A program made the translations under genes and the position numbers. The notes under the pieces were generated by a model that saw nothing but the letters and a program-made list of their open reading frames with translations, was not told where the DNA came from and made no database searches. A DNA stretch of 47,369 nt from Nitrospirota bacterium (GTDB lineage: Bacteria > Nitrospirota > Leptospirillia > Leptospirillales > Leptospirillaceae), in assembly GCA_027314645.1 (NCBI GenBank), contig DAHVAL010000014.1, forward strand, positions 1-47,369. The letters are read 5' to 3'. This document shows positions 7,076 to 16,809 of the stretch, one piece after another; the stretch's first letter is position 1; the number at the start of each line of letters is the position of its first letter.

Positions 7076-7546
7076 TTACGACGCCTCTGCCGGGCGGGGG
7101 GAGGGTATCGTTTTTTGCCGGATGACGCGCGTTCCGGAAAGACAATCGTGCAGAGCCCGGCGGCGATCATTTCCCAAGGCAAAAAGAAATCCTAATCCCA
7201 ATGTCATAAGCGATACAAGAAGACTGAGGGTTCTTGATAAGGCCCGACGGGTCCCGATCGCTCGCAACTCTCCATCATCAGAGTCGCGCACCACGGTCAA
7301 CCCGAAAAGCGACAATCCTGGGGTTTCCGATAATGCGGCCAAAAAGAGAAAAAAGTAAAGGAAAATCCCCGCGGAAACGGCCCAAAAATGGAACGAAGAC
7401 AAGGCCCATTGCCGCAAGGGGTTGAACAAATCATCCCTTGGGGTTCCCGCAAGGACTTCTCTTCTCAGAAGGTACACTCCAAGCTCCGAGAAAAAAATTC
7501 CGAGGGAGAAGTCGATCAAAAAAGCCAGAATACGTCGAAGTATCAT
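7076..7546 (-). CDS. RDD-family integral membrane protein
   Basis: Small inner-membrane protein of 156 residues with the RDD family pattern: an Arg-Arg pair and acidic residue in the first helix (RRILAFLIDF), a second helix around residues 50-72, the TPGLSLFGLTVV stretch after it, a third helix near residues 105-123, and a final ALHDCLSGTRVI segment matching the family's R-A-L-H-D-x-L-x-G-T ending. The ATG overlaps the rsmE stop as ATGA, which fixes the start and argues for co-translation. Biochemical function of most RDD proteins is unknown. Transport or stress roles have been suggested for some members. Confidence 0.8.
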   Translation of the reverse strand: MILRRILAFLIDFSLGIFFSELGVYLLRREVLAGTPRDDLFNPLRQWALSSFHFWAVSAGIFLYFFLFLAALSETPGLSLFGLTVVRDSDDGELRAIGTRRALSRTLSLLVSLMTLGLGFLFALGNDRRRALHDCLSGTRVIRQKTIPSPRPAEAS

Positions 7547-8259
7547 GGATGGCTCGCTCGCTGAATGTCTTCTTGGCCATGAGTCAGAGAGAGGAGGGAG
7601 GCCACGACGATAGGAGCCAGGCGCCCGGGCAGAATCCGTGGCCCCAGACTTGCCCGACACGCCCGTCCGATCTTCTCTTGTTCCAAAACCATGGATCGTT
7701 CACGGTCCGTCCACCCCCCTTCCGGACCCGTCACTGCCAAAAGGGGACGCTCACTCGAAGGAATCGAAAGCGCCTTCCAAATCGGAAGTGCGGTGGGATC
7801 TTCGTCCAGAAAAAGCATGAATGGCAGATCTTCTTCCAACAGTCTTCCCAGAGAACACGGAGGTTTCACCTCCATCCGGTCGGTGCGGCCAGAAAGCTGG
7901 CTTGCCTCCTGAACCTTCGTGTCGAAGCGCGCCTTTTTCCGCTCGAACTGGTCCTTGTTCCAATGGACTTGCGATCGATCGGCGAGAAGGGGATAAAGAG
8001 TCCGGACTCCCAGGCAGACGGACGGTTCGATGATCTCTTCGAACCCTTCCCCTTTGAGGAGTCCGACGGCCACGTCAAAGATCCGTCTTTTTCCGGGGCC
8101 GTTTCCCCCTCGGTCGGGAGAAGGCGTCAGCGAGACGACCAGGGGAACGAGCGCCGTGACCACCCCGAGATAGACCTGATCCGGGCATTCGGGCCGGACA
8201 AATCGGAAGGAATCTCCGGGTGTCGCCCGAAGGCTTTTTGTGAGATGACGGGCGAGCAT
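7543..8259 (-). CDS. rsmE: 16S rRNA m3U1498 methyltransferase RsmE
   Basis: SPOUT-fold methyltransferase expected to methylate N3 of U1498 in 16S rRNA. The GPEGGWTDRE motif and the C-terminal LGPRIL knot stretch identify the family. Position 8259 is the first canonical ATG, but the recognisable N-terminal family segment (…ARHLTKSLRATPGD) would then begin only two residues in, where relatives have roughly 25 more residues. The same frame stays open upstream to a TGA that is also the dnaJ stop. An ideal ribosome site GGGAGG (8350-8355) lies 6 bases before an ATA at 8343-8341, which would give 266 residues. No ATG, GTG or TTG occurs between. After LGPRIL the usual RTET(A) residues are replaced by PGRL, which is unusual. 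It follows dnaJ directly in the heat-shock operon, a common arrangement. Confidence 0.82.
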   Translation of the reverse strand: MLARHLTKSLRATPGDSFRFVRPECPDQVYLGVVTALVPLVVSLTPSPDRGGNGPGKRRIFDVAVGLLKGEGFEEIIEPSVCLGVRTLYPLLADRSQVHWNKDQFERKKARFDTKVQEASQLSGRTDRMEVKPPCSLGRLLEEDLPFMLFLDEDPTALPIWKALSIPSSERPLLAVTGPEGGWTDRERSMVLEQEKIGRACRASLGPRILPGRLAPIVVASLLSLTHGQEDIQRASHP

Positions 8260-8373
8260 GGCGCCGGGATGAAGAACAAGACCGGCCGGGTCATCCTCAA
8301 TGCGATCGGCCCCGGTAATCCAGAAAAGGGCAGGTCCGCCTATGTCCGGCCTCCCGAGGAATAAACGAGCCGA

Positions 8374-9483
8374 TCACTCAAAGATCGACTTTACCTTTGA
8401 AAAAAGGCCTCCGTCGCCCCCCGCCGGATTTTCCTGCGACTCACCCGAAACCTCGGCAAACCGTTCAAGTGCCTCCCGTTGCTCCCGGGACAAACGGGTC
8501 GGAATTTCGACGTTGAACCGGACCACGAGATCTCCCAATCCCCGTGTCTGGGGGTTGGCGATCCCTTTTCCGCGGACTCGGCGAACCGTTCCAGGCTGCG
8601 TTCCCGGATCGACCTTCATCGCATAGGAGCCTCCCAATGTGGGAATTTCAAGTGTCGACCCAAAAATGGCCTGTGTCAGCGTCAGGTTTTTTTCGATGAC
8701 CAGGTCGTCCCCTTCCCGCGTGAAGACCTGGTGGGGTTTGACGACGACATCAAGATAAAGATCCCCGGGGGGCCCTCCACTGACACCCGCATGCCCCTCA
8801 CCGGAGATCCTGACGCGCATGCCCGTCTGAACGCCCGCGGGAATGGACCGCGTGATCGTCCTGTCGACGGAGATTCTCCCCTTCCCGGAACAATTCGGAC
8901 AGATCTCCGTGATCATGCGGCCTTCCCCGCCGCAAGTCCCGCAGGTTTTCTGAACGTGAAAAAATCCCTGCTGAATCCGGATAAATCCGGTCCCACGGCA
9001 GGAAGAACACACCGTGACGGATTTCCCGTTCTTCGATCCGTTCCCCGAACAAGGCGCACAGGTTTCCCATCGCGCGAGCTTGATGGAAATTTCTTTGCCG
9101 AGGGCCGCCTCCTCAAAGGACAGCTCCACCTGGCGAAGGATATGCTCCCCTTGCTGGCGGCCGCCTGAAGAGCCGCCCCCAAAGAATTCGTTGAGAACCT
9201 CGGAAAACACATCCCCGAAGTTCGCCCCTCCACGGGCAAACCCTCCGTCGAAGCCTTCAAAGAAGCCCGAGCCCCCTCCAGAATCATACACCTGGCGCTT
9301 CTGCGGATCGCCGAGAACTTCATAGGCTTCATTGATCAACTTGAATTGCGCTTCCGCCGCTTTGTCGCCAGGATTGCGGTCGGGGTGATACTGCATGGCC
9401 AATTTGCGGTAGGCCTTTTTAATGTCGTCTGCGGACGCGTTTCGGGAGATGCCCAAGACGGTATAAAAATCTTTCGAGGCCAA
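8374..9483 (-). CDS. dnaJ: Chaperone protein DnaJ (Hsp40)
   Basis: Co-chaperone that stimulates DnaK ATPase activity and delivers unfolded clients in the cytoplasm. All parts of a full-length type I DnaJ are present in 369 residues: the J domain with HPD in YHPDRNPGD (about 33-35), a Gly/Phe-rich linker (about 70-110), four zinc-binding CxxCxGxG repeats ([32 protein letters not shown]), and the C-terminal substrate and dimerisation domains. The ATG follows a GGGGAAGGATC ribosome site. It lies 85 bases after dnaK, with a strong intrinsic terminator in that gap, so its expression probably depends on read-through. Confidence 0.97.
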
Positions 9484-9521
9484 AAGAGATCCTTCCCCTG
9501 AATGGAATGGTCGGTTCGTGC

Positions 9522-9553
9522 AAAAAGCGGAAGAAGGATCAGCCTTCTTCCGC
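9522..9553 (-). terminator. Intrinsic terminator/attenuator between dnaK and dnaJ
   Basis: A perfect 11-bp stem (GCGGAAGAAGG with CCTTCTTCCGC, arms 9527-9537 and 9543-9553) and a 5-base loop are followed in the dnaK direction by T5. This is a textbook rho-independent terminator placed 15 bases after the dnaK stop. Because dnaJ follows on the same strand with no clear promoter of its own, it probably reduces dnaJ output relative to dnaK. Confidence 0.85.
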
Positions 9554-9568
9554 CAGGGTATTCTCGCT

Positions 9569-11497
9569 TCAGGACGGGTTCTTTTTCACGTCCTCGTATT
9601 CGGCATCGACCACGTTCTCGCCCGACGGGCCCGAGGCGGACTGGCCGGGAGAAGCGCCATCCCCGCCGCCTTTCTCCGCATTTTGGGACGCCTGGGTGGT
9701 CTTGTACACGATGTCCGCAAGCTTGTGTGATTCCTGCTCCAACACCTTCAACGCTTCCTTGAGCTCATCGATATTTTCGGACGTGAGCTTTCCACGGGCG
9801 GCTTCGATCGCTTCCCGAAACTGGCCCCGTTCCACATCGGAAATTTTCTCGGTCACATCCCCGAGAGATTTTTCCATGGCGTAGATCATGTTTTCCAAGC
9901 CGTTGCGGGTTTCGATCTTCTCGCGTCGCTTATGGTCCTCGGCGGCATGGGCTTCGGCTTCCCGAATCAGACGATCCACCTCGTCCTTCGAAAGCCCTCC
10001 TTGGGCCGTAATGCGGATCGATTGCTCCTTTCCGGTTCCCTTATCCTTGGCGCTGACGTGAACGATTCCATTCGAATCGATATCGAAGGTGACTTCGATT
10101 TGAGGCACGCCCCGGGGGGCGGAAGGAATCCCCGTAAGATCGAACTCGCCCAAAAGCTTGTTATCGGCCGCCATTTCGCGCTCTCCCTGGAAAACCTTGA
10201 TGGTCACGGAGTTTTGATTGTCGGCCGCCGTCGTGAACACCTGGCTACGTTTCGCGGGGATGGTCGTGTTCCTCTCGATCAGCTTGGTAAACACGCCTCC
10301 CAAGGTTTCGAGCCCCAAGGAAAGCGGGGTCACATCAAGAAGAAGGACATCCTTGACGTCTCCCTTCAGCACGGCTCCCTGGATGGCCGCTCCAATCGCC
10401 ACGACCTCGTCGGGGTTCACCCCTTTATGCGGGTCCTTTCCAAAGAACTTGCGGACGGTCTCCTGGACCTTGGGCATACGTGTCTGTCCCCCCACAAGCA
10501 CCACCTCGTCGACATTGGAGGAGGTCAGGTCCGCATCGGAAAGAGCTTTCTTGACAGGCTCAAGGGAATGGCTGACCAGTCCATCGGTCAATTGCTCAAG
10601 CTTCGAGCGGGAAATTTTCATGACCAAATGCTTCGGACCCGAGGCATCTGCGGTAATGAAGGGAAGGTTGACCTCCGTCTCCATCACGGTGGACAACTCG
10701 ATCTTCGCCTTTTCGGAGGCTTCCTTCAGTCGCTGGAGAGCCATTTTGTCTTTTTTAAGGTCGATGCCCGACTCCTGGAGATAGGTCGCGACGATATAAT
10801 CGATCAGGGACGCGTCAAAATCGTCTCCGCCAAGGTAGGTGTCCCCATTGGTGGATTTCACTTCAAACACCCCTTCCCCTATCTCAAGGATCGAAATATC
10901 GAAGGTTCCTCCGCCAAGGTCGTACACGGCAATTTTTTCTTCCTTCTTCCTGTCAAGGCCATACGCCAGGGACGCGGCCGTCGGCTCATTGATGATTCGG
11001 AGAACATTGAGGCCCGCAATCGCCCCGGCATTCTTCGTATCTTGACGCTGCGCGTCATTAAAATAGGCCGGGACCGTGATGACGGCATCGGTCACTTTTT
11101 CCCCAAGGTAGTCCTCGGCGGCTTGTTTGAGCTTCATCAAGATCTTGGCGGAGATTTCCGCAGGGGAATACTGCTTGCCACGTATTTCGACATAGGCATC
11201 CCCACTGGGGCCAGACACGACCTTGTACGGAAGCCGTTTCATCGCATGAACCACCTCGTCGGAAATGAATTTTCGTCCGATGAGACGCTTGACGGAATAA
11301 ATGGTATTTTCCGGATTGGTGATCGCCTGACGTTTCGCCACCTGGCCGACCAGGATCTCCCCTTTGTCTGTGAAAGCAACGACGGATGGGGTAATGCGCG
11401 AACCCTCCTGGTTCGGGATCACGACCGGTTCTCCCCCTTCCATGATGCAGACAACGGAGTTTGTTGTTCCGAGATCGATCCCGATGATTTTACTCAT
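9569..11497 (-). CDS. dnaK: Chaperone protein DnaK (Hsp70)
   Basis: ATP-dependent chaperone of 642 residues that binds exposed hydrophobic segments with DnaJ and GrpE as partners. The N-terminal ATPase domain opens with GIDLGTTNS, contains the [11 protein letters not shown] and [12 protein letters not shown] signatures (about residues 165-205) and the [10 protein letters not shown] segment near 340. The substrate-binding domain and helical lid follow. The tail is Gly/Pro/Ser-rich and ends in an acidic [14 protein letters not shown]-like stretch. A ribosome site GAAAGGAATT precedes the ATG. It is third in the CIRCE-controlled hrcA-grpE-dnaK-dnaJ order. Confidence 0.98.
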
Positions 11498-11582
11498 AGA
11501 TAAATTCCTTTCACGATGAAGTGATATATCATTTCGGCGGAACCCTTGTCCCGCATGTATGTTCCTGCCTTTATTCTCAGTC

Positions 11583-12152
11583 TCAGGATGGCTTTCCCTT
11601 TGAAACCGTCACCATGGAGGGGCGGATCAACCGGTTGTGGATTCGGTAACCTTGCTGATAGACGTCGACAATCATCCCTTCCGGAAGAGTGTCGGTTTCA
11701 GTATACCCGACCGCTTCGTGAACTTCGGGGTCGAAGGAGGCTCCTTCCGACTGAACGCGAACGACATGGTTTTTTTCAAGGAGTTCCAAAAATTGCTTTT
11801 GGGTGAGACGAACCCCCTCGACGAGGGATTTGCATCCTGCGCCACCTTCGGCGTCCACCGTCCCGACATGCTGCAAGGCGCGCTCAAGGTTGTCCAGGAC
11901 AGGTAAAAAAGCCCGGAGAATGGATTCGTTTGCAAATTTGCGCGATTCCTCCAAATCCCTCCCGCTTCTTTTCCGAAAATTGTCGAAATCGGCAAGAAGA
12001 CGAATATATTTCTCCTTCCAGGGATCCCCTTTGGACTCCTCCGTCTGTGATCCTTCTCCCTCTTGAAGAAGCTCAGCCTCCGCATCCGAAGGGGCCTCTC
12101 TTCCCGGCTCCTTATTCGAAGGGGGCGCTTCTTCCTCAAACTCTTCCGGCAT
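11583..12152 (-). CDS. grpE: Nucleotide exchange factor GrpE
   Basis: Dimeric exchange factor that releases ADP from DnaK. The 189 residues comprise an acidic, probably disordered N-terminus rich in Glu (residues 1-45), a long coiled coil beginning near [17 protein letters not shown] (family signature), and a C-terminal beta domain with the conserved [25 protein letters not shown] stretch split across about residues 145-170 and ending in VTVSKGK. It sits between hrcA and dnaK, as expected for CIRCE-type operons. Confidence 0.95.
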
Positions 12153-12219
12153 TCCTCATCCTTTCTATTCCATGTATCCTATTGGTTCACGCACCTCAAA
12201 AATTCACGCATTCAGACGA

Positions 12220-13275
12220 TTATTCAACGCCCAGCCCGGAAAGCCAATGGTTCAGGCGGTTGGAAAGGCGCGACATCAGGGGAATCACCTGACCGTAATC
12301 CATCCGGACGGGGCCGACAAGCCCGATCGTTCCGAACCACGCTCCTGCCCGCAGAAGAGGAATGGAGACGACTGTGCATGCGTCAAGGCCCGGAGGTTCG
12401 TTTTCCGAACCGATCGAGACCGAGATCCCTCGAAATTCGACGAGCTTTTTCAAAAAGCTGAAAAGAGCGATCTGTTCCTCAAAGGCCTGGAACACCGACT
12501 CAAGATCTCCGGCGCGAAAAAACCCAGGCTCCTTCGCAAATCTTGAAGCCCCGAACAATTTGACGCCGGGTGTTCCTTCCAGGCGTTCAAGGGCACCGAC
12601 AAAGTCATTCCAAGCCTCCGAAATTCCCTCCATGTCGGCAAAGAAGGCATCCCGGATCTCGGATATTGTCTTTAATCGCCCTATCCTGTTCAGCTTCAGG
12701 ACGATTTTTCGAAACTCAACCCAGCCAATTCCCTCGGGATAAATGATGGTCCGTTTGAGAAGATGGCCGGTTTCAAGAATCACGACGAGAAGCCCCTCTC
12801 TGCCGGAAACCGGAACAGCCTCGAGGCCCACAACGCGAACATCTCCGACCGATCCCGTTTCCATAAGAAAGACCGCGTGGCCGGACATTCTCCCGACCTG
12901 AATGACGATCTCGGTCAAAACCTCGCTGAATTCGGTCAGCGAGGCTTCGGAAAGAAGCGGTTCGATCCCTTCCGAAAAATGGGTCCATTCTTCAAATTCG
13001 GATTGTTCAAAATCCGAATGGTCGACGAAGTAGCGAAACCCTTTTTCCGTGGGAACGCGCCCCGCGGAGGTGTGGGGATGGGTAAGGTATCCCAACTCCT
13101 CAAGGGCACTCATTATATTTCGGATCGTTGCAGGCGAGTAAGGCAACCTGAAAGAACGGTTGACAGACTGGGAACCGACCGGTAACCCTGAACGGATATA
13201 CCCCACGATGGTGGCGGAAAGAACTGCCCACTTTTTCTGGTCGAGAATTTCCTTCATTTCTGAACTGTCTGGCAC
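12220..13275 (-). CDS. hrcA: Heat-inducible transcription repressor HrcA
   Basis: Repressor that binds the CIRCE operator of class I heat-shock operons and is thought to be kept active by the GroE chaperonin. The N-terminal winged-helix domain includes SQSVNRSFRLPYSPATIRNIMSALEELGYL (about residues 35-65), followed by HTSAGRVPTEKGFRYFVD, which is diagnostic of HrcA. The C-terminal GAF-like part carries the family FGTIGLVGPVRMDY sequence near residue 325. I place the start at a GTG with GGAGG 4 bases upstream (351 residues). An ATG six codons later is also possible. An ATG upstream at 13302 lies inside CIRCE and is rejected. First gene of the operon it should control. Confidence 0.95.
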   Translation of the reverse strand: MPDSSEMKEILDQKKWAVLSATIVGYIRSGLPVGSQSVNRSFRLPYSPATIRNIMSALEELGYLTHPHTSAGRVPTEKGFRYFVDHSDFEQSEFEEWTHFSEGIEPLLSEASLTEFSEVLTEIVIQVGRMSGHAVFLMETGSVGDVRVVGLEAVPVSGREGLLVVILETGHLLKRTIIYPEGIGWVEFRKIVLKLNRIGRLKTISEIRDAFFADMEGISEAWNDFVGALERLEGTPGVKLFGASRFAKEPGFFRAGDLESVFQAFEEQIALFSFLKKLVEFRGISVSIGSENEPPGLDACTVVSIPLLRAGAWFGTIGLVGPVRMDYGQVIPLMSRLSNRLNHWLSGLGVE

Positions 13276-13288
13276 TCGTCCTCCAGAT

Positions 13289-13315
13289 TTAGCACTCAGC
13301 AACTTCGAGTGCTAA
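13289..13315 (-). promoter_or_regulatory. CIRCE operator
   Basis: Perfect 9-bp inverted repeat TTAGCACTC / GAGTGCTAA with a 9-base spacer, matching the established CIRCE consensus exactly. It begins immediately downstream of the -10 box and ends 14 bases before the hrcA GTG, so the predicted transcription start lies inside it. HrcA bound here would block initiation, and the element would also form a stem at the 5' end of the mRNA. Confidence 0.97.
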
Positions 13316-13615: not shown

Positions 13616-14524
13616 TTATGGGCGGTAATCATCAATCCCCGGGCGCCGGATGGCTTCGGCATGGCTGATCGGCTGCCCGAGCGGTCTCAGCCCCATTTCG
13701 CCCGCGGCCATATCCAGATGCAACCCCAACACTTCCTGAATATCGGGGTTGAGGAAATCGGATCCGGCCCTTTGGTCGACCATTTTCAGATAGGTTCGAC
13801 ACCCCTCGCACGCCAGTATTCCCTGATGTTCATTGGGATGCTTGTAGAGAAGATCGAAAAGCTCCGGATCGGTTTCCCCGCAGGAGGGGCATCCAGCCAT
13901 CAAAAATGTCTCCCAATGAAACGAACAGAAAAAACAATAGTACCTTCTCCGGTCGTTCGACACGGCCTGGCCGATGACGGGCGGCGCTCCGCATACCGGA
14001 CAGTGGGCATAGCCCCATTCAAGGTTCCGCAAAAAAGTGATCAGGGTTTCGTGAAGGCGTTCAAAGGAGATGCGAAGAGACATTTTCAGCAAGTAGACCA
14101 GAAGGGGACGGGGAACATCCATCGTTTCCGAAACGGAATCAAAATGCCCGTCGTCGCGAGAGAGAAGCTCGGCGATCACTTCTCCTTCCGATTTCCGGCT
14201 GTTTCTCATGAAGGTCGCAATACGGGTGGCATATTGCTCGCGCTCTCCGCCGCCTTGTCTCATGACGGTCATAATCTTCCTGAACTGCTGCCCGGTGTGA
14301 GGAAGGTTCATTTTTGCAAAGGCGGGACGGTCAATCAAAGGAATGCCTCTCGACAATCGCTCCCGGAGCGTCGCGTCGCGAAGATCGATCAAGGCCAGGA
14401 GGTCGTCAGGTCGGGAGGTATTCCAGATCTCTTCGATCTTCTCGTAAAACTGGAAAATATCCCGCAAATGAGGGCGCGCCCGAATATGTTCGGCGAGCAT
14501 TCGATCACGTTCAGAAGATTCCAT
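13616..14524 (-). CDS. FdhE-like formate dehydrogenase accessory protein
   Basis: Resembles FdhE, a cytoplasmic iron-binding protein needed for activity of respiratory formate dehydrogenases. The 302-residue protein has a helical N-terminal half and a C-terminal half with rubredoxin-like Cys pairs: CPVCG (about residue 172), CFFC (about 194), CPSCG (about 209) and CEGC (about 233). An aromatic-rich link RRYYCFFCSFHWE lies between the pairs, as in the family. No formate dehydrogenase subunit is encoded in the window, so its client enzyme must lie elsewhere or differ. It follows relA by 17 bases and is probably co-transcribed. Confidence 0.75.
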   Translation of the reverse strand: MESSERDRMLAEHIRARPHLRDIFQFYEKIEEIWNTSRPDDLLALIDLRDATLRERLSRGIPLIDRPAFAKMNLPHTGQQFRKIMTVMRQGGGEREQYATRIATFMRNSRKSEGEVIAELLSRDDGHFDSVSETMDVPRPLLVYLLKMSLRISFERLHETLITFLRNLEWGYAHCPVCGAPPVIGQAVSNDRRRYYCFFCSFHWETFLMAGCPSCGETDPELFDLLYKHPNEHQGILACEGCRTYLKMVDQRAGSDFLNPDIQEVLGLHLDMAAGEMGLRPLGQPISHAEAIRRPGIDDYRP

Positions 14525-14541
14525 GCAACCTCCGGGATATC

Positions 14542-16809
14542 TTAGGCGTTGAAGGTGTGAAATGGTTCAGAAGAGGTTTTGATCCTCTGCACGCGAACGA
14601 CGCCCTTCACGTGTTGGACTCGCGTCATGATCTCCTGAAGATGACCCAGATTTTCTACGGTAATGGTGAAGTCCAGAACCCCCATGCGGTGCTTGGATGG
14701 TTTTACCTCGGCATGCGTGATGTTGGCCCCCCGCTCCGAAATGACCGCGGAAACAGCCGCCAGCATCCCGGGTTTGTCCTCCATCGACACCCGGAGATGG
14801 ACATCGAAGATCGCATCCTTCGAAGAGTCCCACACAGCAGGAACAATCCGGTCCTGCTCCAGGGAAAGGTGGACGAGATTCGGACAGTCGGCAGTATGGA
14901 CAATGATCCCCCGTCCCCGCGTGACATACCCGACGATCTCCTCTCCAGGGACAGGGCTGCAACACCCCGCAAGACCGATCAGAAGATCCTTTCCACCCCC
15001 CCGAACAACGATCGGGACCCGTTCCTGCATTGGAGAGGGGGTGATGACAGAAACAGGTTCCTCTCCCTGACCCGGAAGGAGTTTTCGGAGCACCGAGGAG
15101 GCGGAAAGCCGGCCGAACCCGATGCGGGAATAGATATCCTCGAGCGTAGGATCGGACAAATCGGAGAACGAGAGGACGGTTCCCAAAAATGGCGGCTTGG
15201 TAAACTCGCTCCATCGCCGATGAAATTTTTGGGCCTCCGCCTCAAGGGAGCGCAACCCGATTTCTGCGCTCTGGCGCATCTCCTCTTCCTTGATCCAGTG
15301 GCGGATTCTGGCCCGTGCCTTGGGGGTGGCGACAAAGCGCAGCCAATCCTTGCTCGGGGTTTGAGAAGGATTCGTGATGATCTCGACCACATCGCCGCTT
15401 TCCAGGACCGTCTTGATGGGAACCCATCGTCCATTCACGCGGGCGCCAACGGTACGGTTCCCTACCTCGGTATGGATCCCGTAGGCGAAATCAATCGCCG
15501 TCGAGCCCTTGATCATTTCCCGAACATCGCCGGCCGGTGTAAAGACATAGACCTCATCAGGAAAGAGGTTGAGCTTTACCGAATTCATGAATTCCTGATT
15601 GTCGGAAAGCTCCTTCTGCCATTCGACGAGTTGGCGAAGCCAATTCACGACCTTGAGATCCGGAAAAGCGGGTGTGCCGTCCGAGTTTTCCTTATAATTC
15701 CAATGGGCGGCGACCCCTTCTTCGGCCACGCGATGCATCTCTTCCGTCCGGATCTGAAACTCCACGAGCACCCCTTCCGGTGCGATCACGGTCGTATGCA
15801 GGGATTGATACATATTCGACTTTGGAACGGCAATGAAATCCTTAATGCGGCCGGCCATCGGCTTGTAAATCCCGTGGAGCAATCCCAACACGCCGTAACA
15901 ATGGAGCTTCGTGTCGGTAATGACCCGAATCCCCATCAAATCGTAGATTTCATCAAAAGGAATTTCCTGGGAGGTCATCTTCCGGTAAATGCTGTAGATA
16001 TGCTTGTACCGGCCTTCAACACGGCCAGGAATGGCGTTTTCAACCAAGGACTGAGAGACCGAGTGGATGATCTGCTCGATATAATTGGTCCGTTCCTTCC
16101 GTTTTCTCGCCACCCGGGAGCGAAGGTCGGCATAGGTTTCCGGATCAAGGACGGAAAAGGAAAGGTCTTCAAGCTCGGATTTGATCCATCCGATCCCAAG
16201 CCGATTGGCCAACGGGGCATAAATATCCAGGGTCTCTTGGGCAATGATTTTTTGCTTCGACGCATCGAGCCATTCGATCGTGCGCATGTTGTGAAGCCGG
16301 TCCGCGAGCTTGACAAGAAGAACGCGGATATCTTCCGACATCGACAAAAGCATCTTACGAAAATTTTCGGCCTGCTTCTCTGCCTGGGACTTCTTAAATT
16401 GAAACTTTCCTATTTTGGTGACGCCGTCGATCAAATGCAGAACTTTTTTCCCAAAGGTGGACTCGATCACTTCGGGCGAGAGGGACGTGTCTTCCAGGGT
16501 GTCATGGAGAAGGGCGGTGACGAGACAATTGGTATCGACCCGCATTTCGGCCAAAATAAGAGCCACATTCAGCGGATGTTTGATATAGGAGTCGCCGGAC
16601 TGCCGTTTTTGACCCTCATGCGATTCGAGGGCCATATTGTAGGCCTTGCGGATAAGGTCAAGACCTTCAGGATTCGGATTGTACCGGGCCACCGTCTCAA
16701 GAAGCCTGTCGAGGGTGACCTCCCCTTCCGGAAGGGCATGCCCATGGTCCGTGGGATCAGAAATCCCTTCAGGCCTGTCGGTATTGGCTAACAACGAAGA
16801 GGCGTTCAA
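14542..16809 (-). CDS. (p)ppGpp synthetase/hydrolase, RelA/SpoT family
   Basis: Makes and probably degrades the alarmone (p)ppGpp. The 755-residue protein carries an HD hydrolase domain with HDTLEDT (HD at 102-103, ED at 106-107), a synthetase domain with KHIYSIYRKM, FDEIYDLMGIRVI and QIRTEEMHRVAEEGVAAHW, a TGS domain beginning VFTPAGDV, and a C-terminal ACT domain. An intact HDxxED motif suggests it is bifunctional, of the long Rel type, although this is inference. The start is a TTG behind AAGGGGG. It overlaps the end of recJ by 41 bases. No second long RSH protein is visible here. Confidence 0.93.
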   Translation of the reverse strand: MNASSLLANTDRPEGISDPTDHGHALPEGEVTLDRLLETVARYNPNPEGLDLIRKAYNMALESHEGQKRQSGDSYIKHPLNVALILAEMRVDTNCLVTALLHDTLEDTSLSPEVIESTFGKKVLHLIDGVTKIGKFQFKKSQAEKQAENFRKMLLSMSEDIRVLLVKLADRLHNMRTIEWLDASKQKIIAQETLDIYAPLANRLGIGWIKSELEDLSFSVLDPETYADLRSRVARKRKERTNYIEQIIHSVSQSLVENAIPGRVEGRYKHIYSIYRKMTSQEIPFDEIYDLMGIRVITDTKLHCYGVLGLLHGIYKPMAGRIKDFIAVPKSNMYQSLHTTVIAPEGVLVEFQIRTEEMHRVAEEGVAAHWNYKENSDGTPAFPDLKVVNWLRQLVEWQKELSDNQEFMNSVKLNLFPDEVYVFTPAGDVREMIKGSTAIDFAYGIHTEVGNRTVGARVNGRWVPIKTVLESGDVVEIITNPSQTPSKDWLRFVATPKARARIRHWIKEEEMRQSAEIGLRSLEAEAQKFHRRWSEFTKPPFLGTVLSFSDLSDPTLEDIYSRIGFGRLSASSVLRKLLPGQGEEPVSVITPSPMQERVPIVVRGGGKDLLIGLAGCCSPVPGEEIVGYVTRGRGIIVHTADCPNLVHLSLEQDRIVPAVWDSSKDAIFDVHLRVSMEDKPGMLAAVSAVISERGANITHAEVKPSKHRMGVLDFTITVENLGHLQEIMTRVQHVKGVVRVQRIKTSSEPFHTFNA

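Follow-up and report, generated by a model that had tools for sequence, protein, structure and literature searches.

Several bacterial genes starting at AUA have been described, although such starts are uncommon. In Staphylococcus aureus, infC, ccpN, and citZ start at AUA, and such starts are tied to extended Shine-Dalgarno (SD) motifs (PMC13009471). Initiation at the non-AUG sites tested in this species (AUA of ccpN and citZ, and AUU of cvfC1) amounted to about 10% of that at AUG, with the ccpN AUA reaching up to 30% of AUG in rich medium (PMC13009471). In Listeria, rsbW alleles with ATA are initiated at this codon with reduced protein output (PMC13068326), and reduced protein was also reported for the ATG>ATA allele of rpoS in E. 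coli O104:H4, which arises as a laboratory allele (PMC12864459). For E. coli, the output from ATA has been put at no more than 1% of that from ATG (Hecht 2017, cited in PMC12864459), and a third-base mismatch with CAU (AUU/CAU) results in a very low yield in vitro (PMC10158994).

In this work, the dnaJ-rsmE junction was analyzed within the window, i.e., the whole 47,369-nt stretch of DNA of a Nitrospirota bacterium of the family Leptospirillaceae. Based on comparative sequence data, it is probable (roughly 0.74) that the ATA triplet at 8343-8341 is a genuine AUA start of rsmE; the position of this triplet, its homology, its SD, and the full-length match of the product to solved RsmE structures are documented below.

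With AUA starts documented in Staphylococcus, Bacillus, and Listeria, the rsmE AUA would be ordinary in kind. Among the publications listed by a literature search for rsmE with non-canonical or AUA/ATA starts, none was seen to report such a start in rsmE. The rsmE gene resembles infC, ccpN, and citZ of S. aureus in combining AUA with a strong SD and, like the citZ AUA, which is limited to one strain lineage, its AUA is limited to one species. However, the S. aureus AUA starts were mapped by Ribo-Ret (those of ccpN and citZ were additionally tested with reporters), whereas the rsmE AUA is proposed from sequence. S. aureus and Bacillus subtilis share the ccpN AUA, and the rsmE case further differs in phylum and in the kind of gene, which here codes for an rRNA methyltransferase. 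The rsmE case may also be likened to rsbW of Listeria and rpoS of E. coli O104:H4, in which a single-base ATG to ATA change leaves a reduced but real output, although these are recent alleles with the ATG parent in hand, whereas the parent codon of rsmE was deduced from species about 56-60% identical at the protein level.

Organization of the dnaJ-rsmE junction

The features of the junction are summarized in Table 1. It had been proposed earlier, from the letters of this DNA, that rsmE lacks an ATG, GTG, or TTG start, and indeed none of these occurs in the 38 codons of the rsmE frame from 8373 to 8260. The frame was also said to stay open up to the dnaJ stop, which holds true, since the dnaJ TGA lies in the rsmE frame, 30 nt before the ATA. 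The placement of the ATA 6 bases after GGGAGG agrees in both coordinates and spacer. The first canonical ATG (8259), located 28 codons downstream of the ATA, was described as devoid of a ribosome-binding site, and the preceding sequence, CCGGTCTTGTTCTTCATCCCGGCGCC, contains neither an SD nor any other purine-rich site; as this codon encodes Met29 counted from the ATA, the expected cost of about 28 N-terminal residues was likewise borne out. It should be stressed that in the same window 37 and 34 codons are open before the first canonical starts of dnaK and dnaJ, respectively, so such openness alone is not rare, and it is homology that carries the case. The Rfam scan of the window indicated no RNA element at the dnaJ-rsmE junction.

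Table 1. Coordinates of the features of the dnaJ-rsmE junction in the window and of infC in the same genome.
Feature	Position	Strand	Remarks
rsmE	7543..8343	-	266 codons read from ATA; 16S rRNA m3U1498 methyltransferase family, SPOUT
ATA, putative start codon	8343-8341	-	codon-level comparison of 16 family loci
GGGAGG, Shine-Dalgarno	8355-8350	-	6-nt spacer to ATA; duplex energy -10.3 kcal/mol with the anti-SD
27 codons, ATA to first ATG	8260..8340	-	N-terminal PUA strands; lost if the start is at 8259
ATG, first canonical in-frame start	8259-8257	-	Met29, inside helix 28-37; not a likely start
dnaJ	8374..9483	-	369 aa from TTG; ORF list; TGA 8376-8374
dnaJ-rsmE gap	8344..8373	-	30 nt; same length in L003-L006, sequence different
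mini-ORF, other frame	8340..8381	-	TTG over the dnaJ end, 13 codons, TAG overlapping ATA (ATAG)
infC	G000:C4:14889-15386		own genome; row set L066-L080 (14 genus genomes)

The mini-ORF present in another frame at this junction shows no sequence conservation beyond its start, although in L003-L006 the corresponding frame ends with a TGA overlapping the GTG or ATG (GTGA or ATGA). It is probably a product of chance, and it would fit termination-reinitiation. Coupling of rsmE to dnaJ termination, as suggested in the earlier note, is plausible, given the 30-nt gap.

Regarding the neighborhood, the region 7543-13302 (minus strand) holds a heat-shock cluster comprising hrcA (Pfam), a grpE-like gene, dnaK, dnaJ, and rsmE, where grpE and dnaK are presumed identifications based on the ORF sequences. 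An ATG at 7546, possibly that of the next gene, overlaps the rsmE stop (ATGA). The window also contains, at 14314-16791 (plus strand), an ORF of 825 codons that matched no Pfam family at E 0.001 and has a fair SD (-8.6) upstream.

Identity and predicted structure of the rsmE product

The product of the gene matched TIGR00046 with 88.3 bits (cut-off 41), which places it in the RsmE subfamily, and PF04452 with 87.1 bits (cut-off 23.9). The stricter NCBI equivalog models were not reached (best 75.8 of 196), and the PUA_4 Pfam model alone remained below its cut-off (12 of 23.9). The protein is, judging by these matches, a member of the RsmE family with predicted U1498 methylation.

The AlphaFold2 model of the full-length protein, built from a 10-row alignment (mean pLDDT 80.3), together with VIA-align, revealed an N-terminal PUA domain and a C-terminal knotted SPOUT domain. 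For ten RsmE-family entries, alignment to the model covered 225-239 residues with Z 20.3-22.5. The VIA-align table contains 15 RsmE-family entries, and for 12 of them the alignment begins at model residue 1-5 and chain residue 0-7, which indicates that the ATA start gives the normal RsmE length; the remaining alignments start at 71, 72, and 22 (two of these involve chains of 173-174 residues and one has an rmsd of 10.5). In the model, residues 14-18 and 21-25 form strands located upstream of Met29, so initiation at 8259 would disrupt the PUA domain, which is described as the RNA-binding domain of the RsmE family (PMC5699498).

Codons 2-28 as protein-coding sequence

The upstream frame had been proposed to resemble the missing N-terminus, and the comparison with relatives supports this. 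Amino-acid identity to the nearest relative (L003) equals 59% within codons 2-28 and 56% within the remaining protein, and the identity at codon positions 1, 2, and 3 of this stretch is 0.74, 0.81, and 0.48, respectively, i.e., these codons are conserved like the rest, with positions 1 and 2 exceeding position 3. Other relatives gave values similar to those of L003. Moreover, the 10-row alignment shows no variation at G3, P4, F7, and W8, and all 16 loci have these residues. The invariant GP..FW places the start at codon 1 or 2, or upstream. No ATG, GTG, or TTG able to yield this conserved N-terminus was found, and no other near-cognate codon at or upstream of codons 1-2 has an SD.

Start column in related genomes

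Among 21 family genomes, rsmE was present in 16; it was not found in G001, G006, G007, G010, and G018, all of which are 64-81% complete. At the column of the ATA, the 16 loci carry ATA (once, in the window), GTG (four loci: L003, L004, L005, and L011), ATG (six loci: L006 and L012-L016), or no start codon (TCC in L007, L009, L010, and L022, and GCT in L008). Thus, the ATA is aligned with a start codon in 10 of the 15 other family loci, and none of these 15 has a start codon at the position of the 8259 ATG; homologues beginning there were what the earlier note had named as speaking against its reading. In L003-L006, as in the window, the start lies exactly 30 nt past the dnaJ stop, and these 30 nt differ in sequence. 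Read by eye in its own frame, the dnaJ C-terminus precedes rsmE in 10/10 genus loci (SKVKSIFE in five and SKVKSIFD in five).

The earlier note had placed two options side by side, authentic initiation at AUA and an error in the sequence, and had advised an alignment with close relatives. This alignment speaks for a true start site, and an error in its bases, which come from one assembly, keeps a small probability. ATA at this column occurs in none of the 15 other family loci, so conservation within the lineage was not observed; a conserved AUA is the usual supporting feature and not a strict requirement (the citZ AUA is strain-bound), and one assembly of the species was compared. In the tree (15 rows, with the truncated L022 left out), the window belongs neither to the L003-L006 group (90/92) nor to the TTG group (99/95), which suggests that ATG or GTG at the column is likely the ancestral state, and ATA would be private to the lineage of the window.

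The start-column comparison covers the family loci; 14 loci of other families (L017-L021 and L023-L031), as well as 34 loci from the contig search (Acidobacteria, cyanobacteria, and others) that are too distant, were kept out of it. No recognizable genus member was present among the latter 34 loci, and the pattern scan of viral contigs gave no matches.

In L007-L010 and L022, the nearest in-frame ATG, GTG, or TTG is a TTG that shares 8 nt with the end of dnaJ and would add 13-14 residues, and codons further upstream fall inside dnaJ. In this sister clade (L007 of G002, L008 of G008, L009 of G012, L010 of G004, and L022 of G011), the TTG over the dnaJ stop reads TTGACTGA or TTGACTAA, and a strong SD-like GAGGGG precedes the usual start position. 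This GAGGGG looks like a remnant of an ancestral start, and the start would have been relocated through a change of frame at the junction. For the clade B extension, the coding test had 9-10 codons to work with, a short stretch. The TTG overlapping the dnaJ end, inferred as the start in these five loci, was also considered for the window and rejected, as it lies there in another frame and ends at a TAG.

Shine-Dalgarno strength and folding of the start region

Using one method, SD energies were calculated for the 11 loci starting at the column, and the ATA of the window proved to have the strongest SD (GGGAGG, properly spaced at 6 nt). The energies at the GTG starts were -9.5, -9.5, -8.6, and -7.3 kcal/mol, and those at the ATG starts were -7.7, -3.1, -2.4, -2.3, -0.5, and 0 kcal/mol (non-ATG vs. 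ATG, exact two-sided p = 0.009, for 11 related and non-independent rows). Stronger SDs at GUG and UUG starts, i.e., the same direction, were reported across prokaryotes (PMC5622118). In the window (both strands, same search range), just 13 of 954 ATA triplets have SD pairing of -10.3 kcal/mol or stronger, and the one of rsmE coincides precisely with the column at which the relatives start. Two family genomes have an intact anti-SD (CCTCC); no 16S gene was found in this assembly. It should be mentioned that SD-like strength before the column is generally high in the genus, and strong SD-like stretches precede it in L008 and L009 too, with no start after them; hence, taken by itself, the strength of the SD is a weak argument. 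Folding of the start region is predicted at -18.6 kcal/mol in the window vs. -23.3 to -31.8 kcal/mol in L003-L006; compared with the more distant family members (-9.9 to -22.1 kcal/mol), the region of the window shows no weaker folding.

Start of infC and initiator tRNA in the genus

A start at ATT is known for infC. In all 15 infC rows from the 14 genus genomes, the genome of the window included, there is no in-frame upstream ATG, GTG, or TTG, and CTGATTAAY follows AAGGAGG or AAGGGGG in each of them (L081, a second, weak fragment in G019, was omitted). ATT (or CTG) is therefore likely to be the infC start in the genus, as judged from this alignment. The first canonical codon of infC lies 17-59 codons downstream, and gene finders may cut infC short. 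With an infC start other than ATG, GTG, or TTG, the machinery of the organism apparently tolerates weak ATN starts when a strong SD precedes them. Both infC of the genus and rsmE would thus combine a non-canonical ATN start after a strong SD with a gene acting on the ribosome, but the infC ATT is conserved in 15/15 rows and the rsmE ATA was found once.

In the genome, 40 tRNA matches were found, of which 39 were typed and four carry the CAU anticodon. A GGG/CCC anticodon stem is the hallmark of the initiator tRNA, and L110, which has both CAU and this stem, is taken by us to be the initiator. A dedicated initiator with a UAU anticodon was also considered; none of the 39 typed matches (out of 40) has UAU, which, in an incomplete assembly, weighs little.

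Proposed initiation at AUA and alternative explanations

In the proposed scenario, the ATA would be derived from the family ATG or GTG start, most simply by one G-to-A change in ATG. The 30S subunit would be held over the AUA by the GGGAGG at 6 nt, by a start region with weaker folding than that of the sister species, and by the proximity of the dnaJ stop; at the AUA, the ordinary CAU initiator tRNA would insert formyl-methionine despite the third-base A-C mismatch. A normal, full-length RsmE would result, synthesized more slowly than with an AUG. We infer the presence of the AUA in the living genome, initiation at this codon, and a low yield.

Among the alternatives, the one that survives best, although it is still unlikely, is a consensus error or a rare strain allele, with ATG (or GTG) at 8343-8341 in the population and ATA in the assembly. 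The assembly is a draft in 69 contigs without a 16S gene, it is the one assembly of the species that was compared, ATA is one base from ATG, and ATG>ATA is also known as a laboratory allele of E. coli rpoS (PMC12864459). On the other hand, the remaining rsmE is intact and conserved, a random error would need to strike the start codon, and the SD of the window is the strongest among the 11 loci.

That the rsmE start codon was lost and the gene is entering decay appears very improbable: the 266 codons contain neither a stop nor a frameshift, the conserved columns of the catalytic domain are kept, and the strong SD is retained, even though RsmE is not known to be essential in E. coli and an ATA start would lower the output. 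Translation from the ATG at 8259, yielding a 238-aa protein without the first strands, has in its favor that this is the first canonical in-frame start; however, no SD precedes it, 0/15 relatives start there, the codons upstream of it are conserved as coding, and the product would lack the invariant GP..FW together with strands 14-18 and 21-25, which makes this option extremely improbable. A start at another near-cognate codon (ATT at codon 9, or the upstream TTA or CTC) is scarcely credible despite ATT being the likely infC start in this genome, as the ATT at codon 9 is preceded by the invariant GP..FW, neither an SD nor a homologous start goes with the upstream codons, and of all these codons only the ATA lies on the start column.

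Significance of the probable rsmE AUA start

U1498, the target of RsmE, lies near the decoding region, and IF3 is autoregulated through infC in E. coli. By analogy with infC, the AUA, as a poorly read start, could be a regulatory choice, with rsmE output responding to the IF3 level or to methylation of its own target; in the same reading, the ATAG stop of the mini-ORF, the counterpart of GTGA or ATGA in the sister species, may preserve coupling through a 13-codon leader. We consider this reading very doubtful.

As a genuine start of rsmE, the ATA would represent a clean comparative case of AUA initiation beyond the model species, for which 15 relatives show the homologous codon, its spacing, and the SD. 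Annotation pipelines admitting only ATG, GTG, and TTG would truncate this RsmE by 28 residues, removing the first PUA strands. Furthermore, the ten loci of the genus, whose dnaJ-rsmE junctions carry ATG, GTG, ATA, or a relocated TTG, could provide a small natural series for studying the trade-off between start codon and SD.
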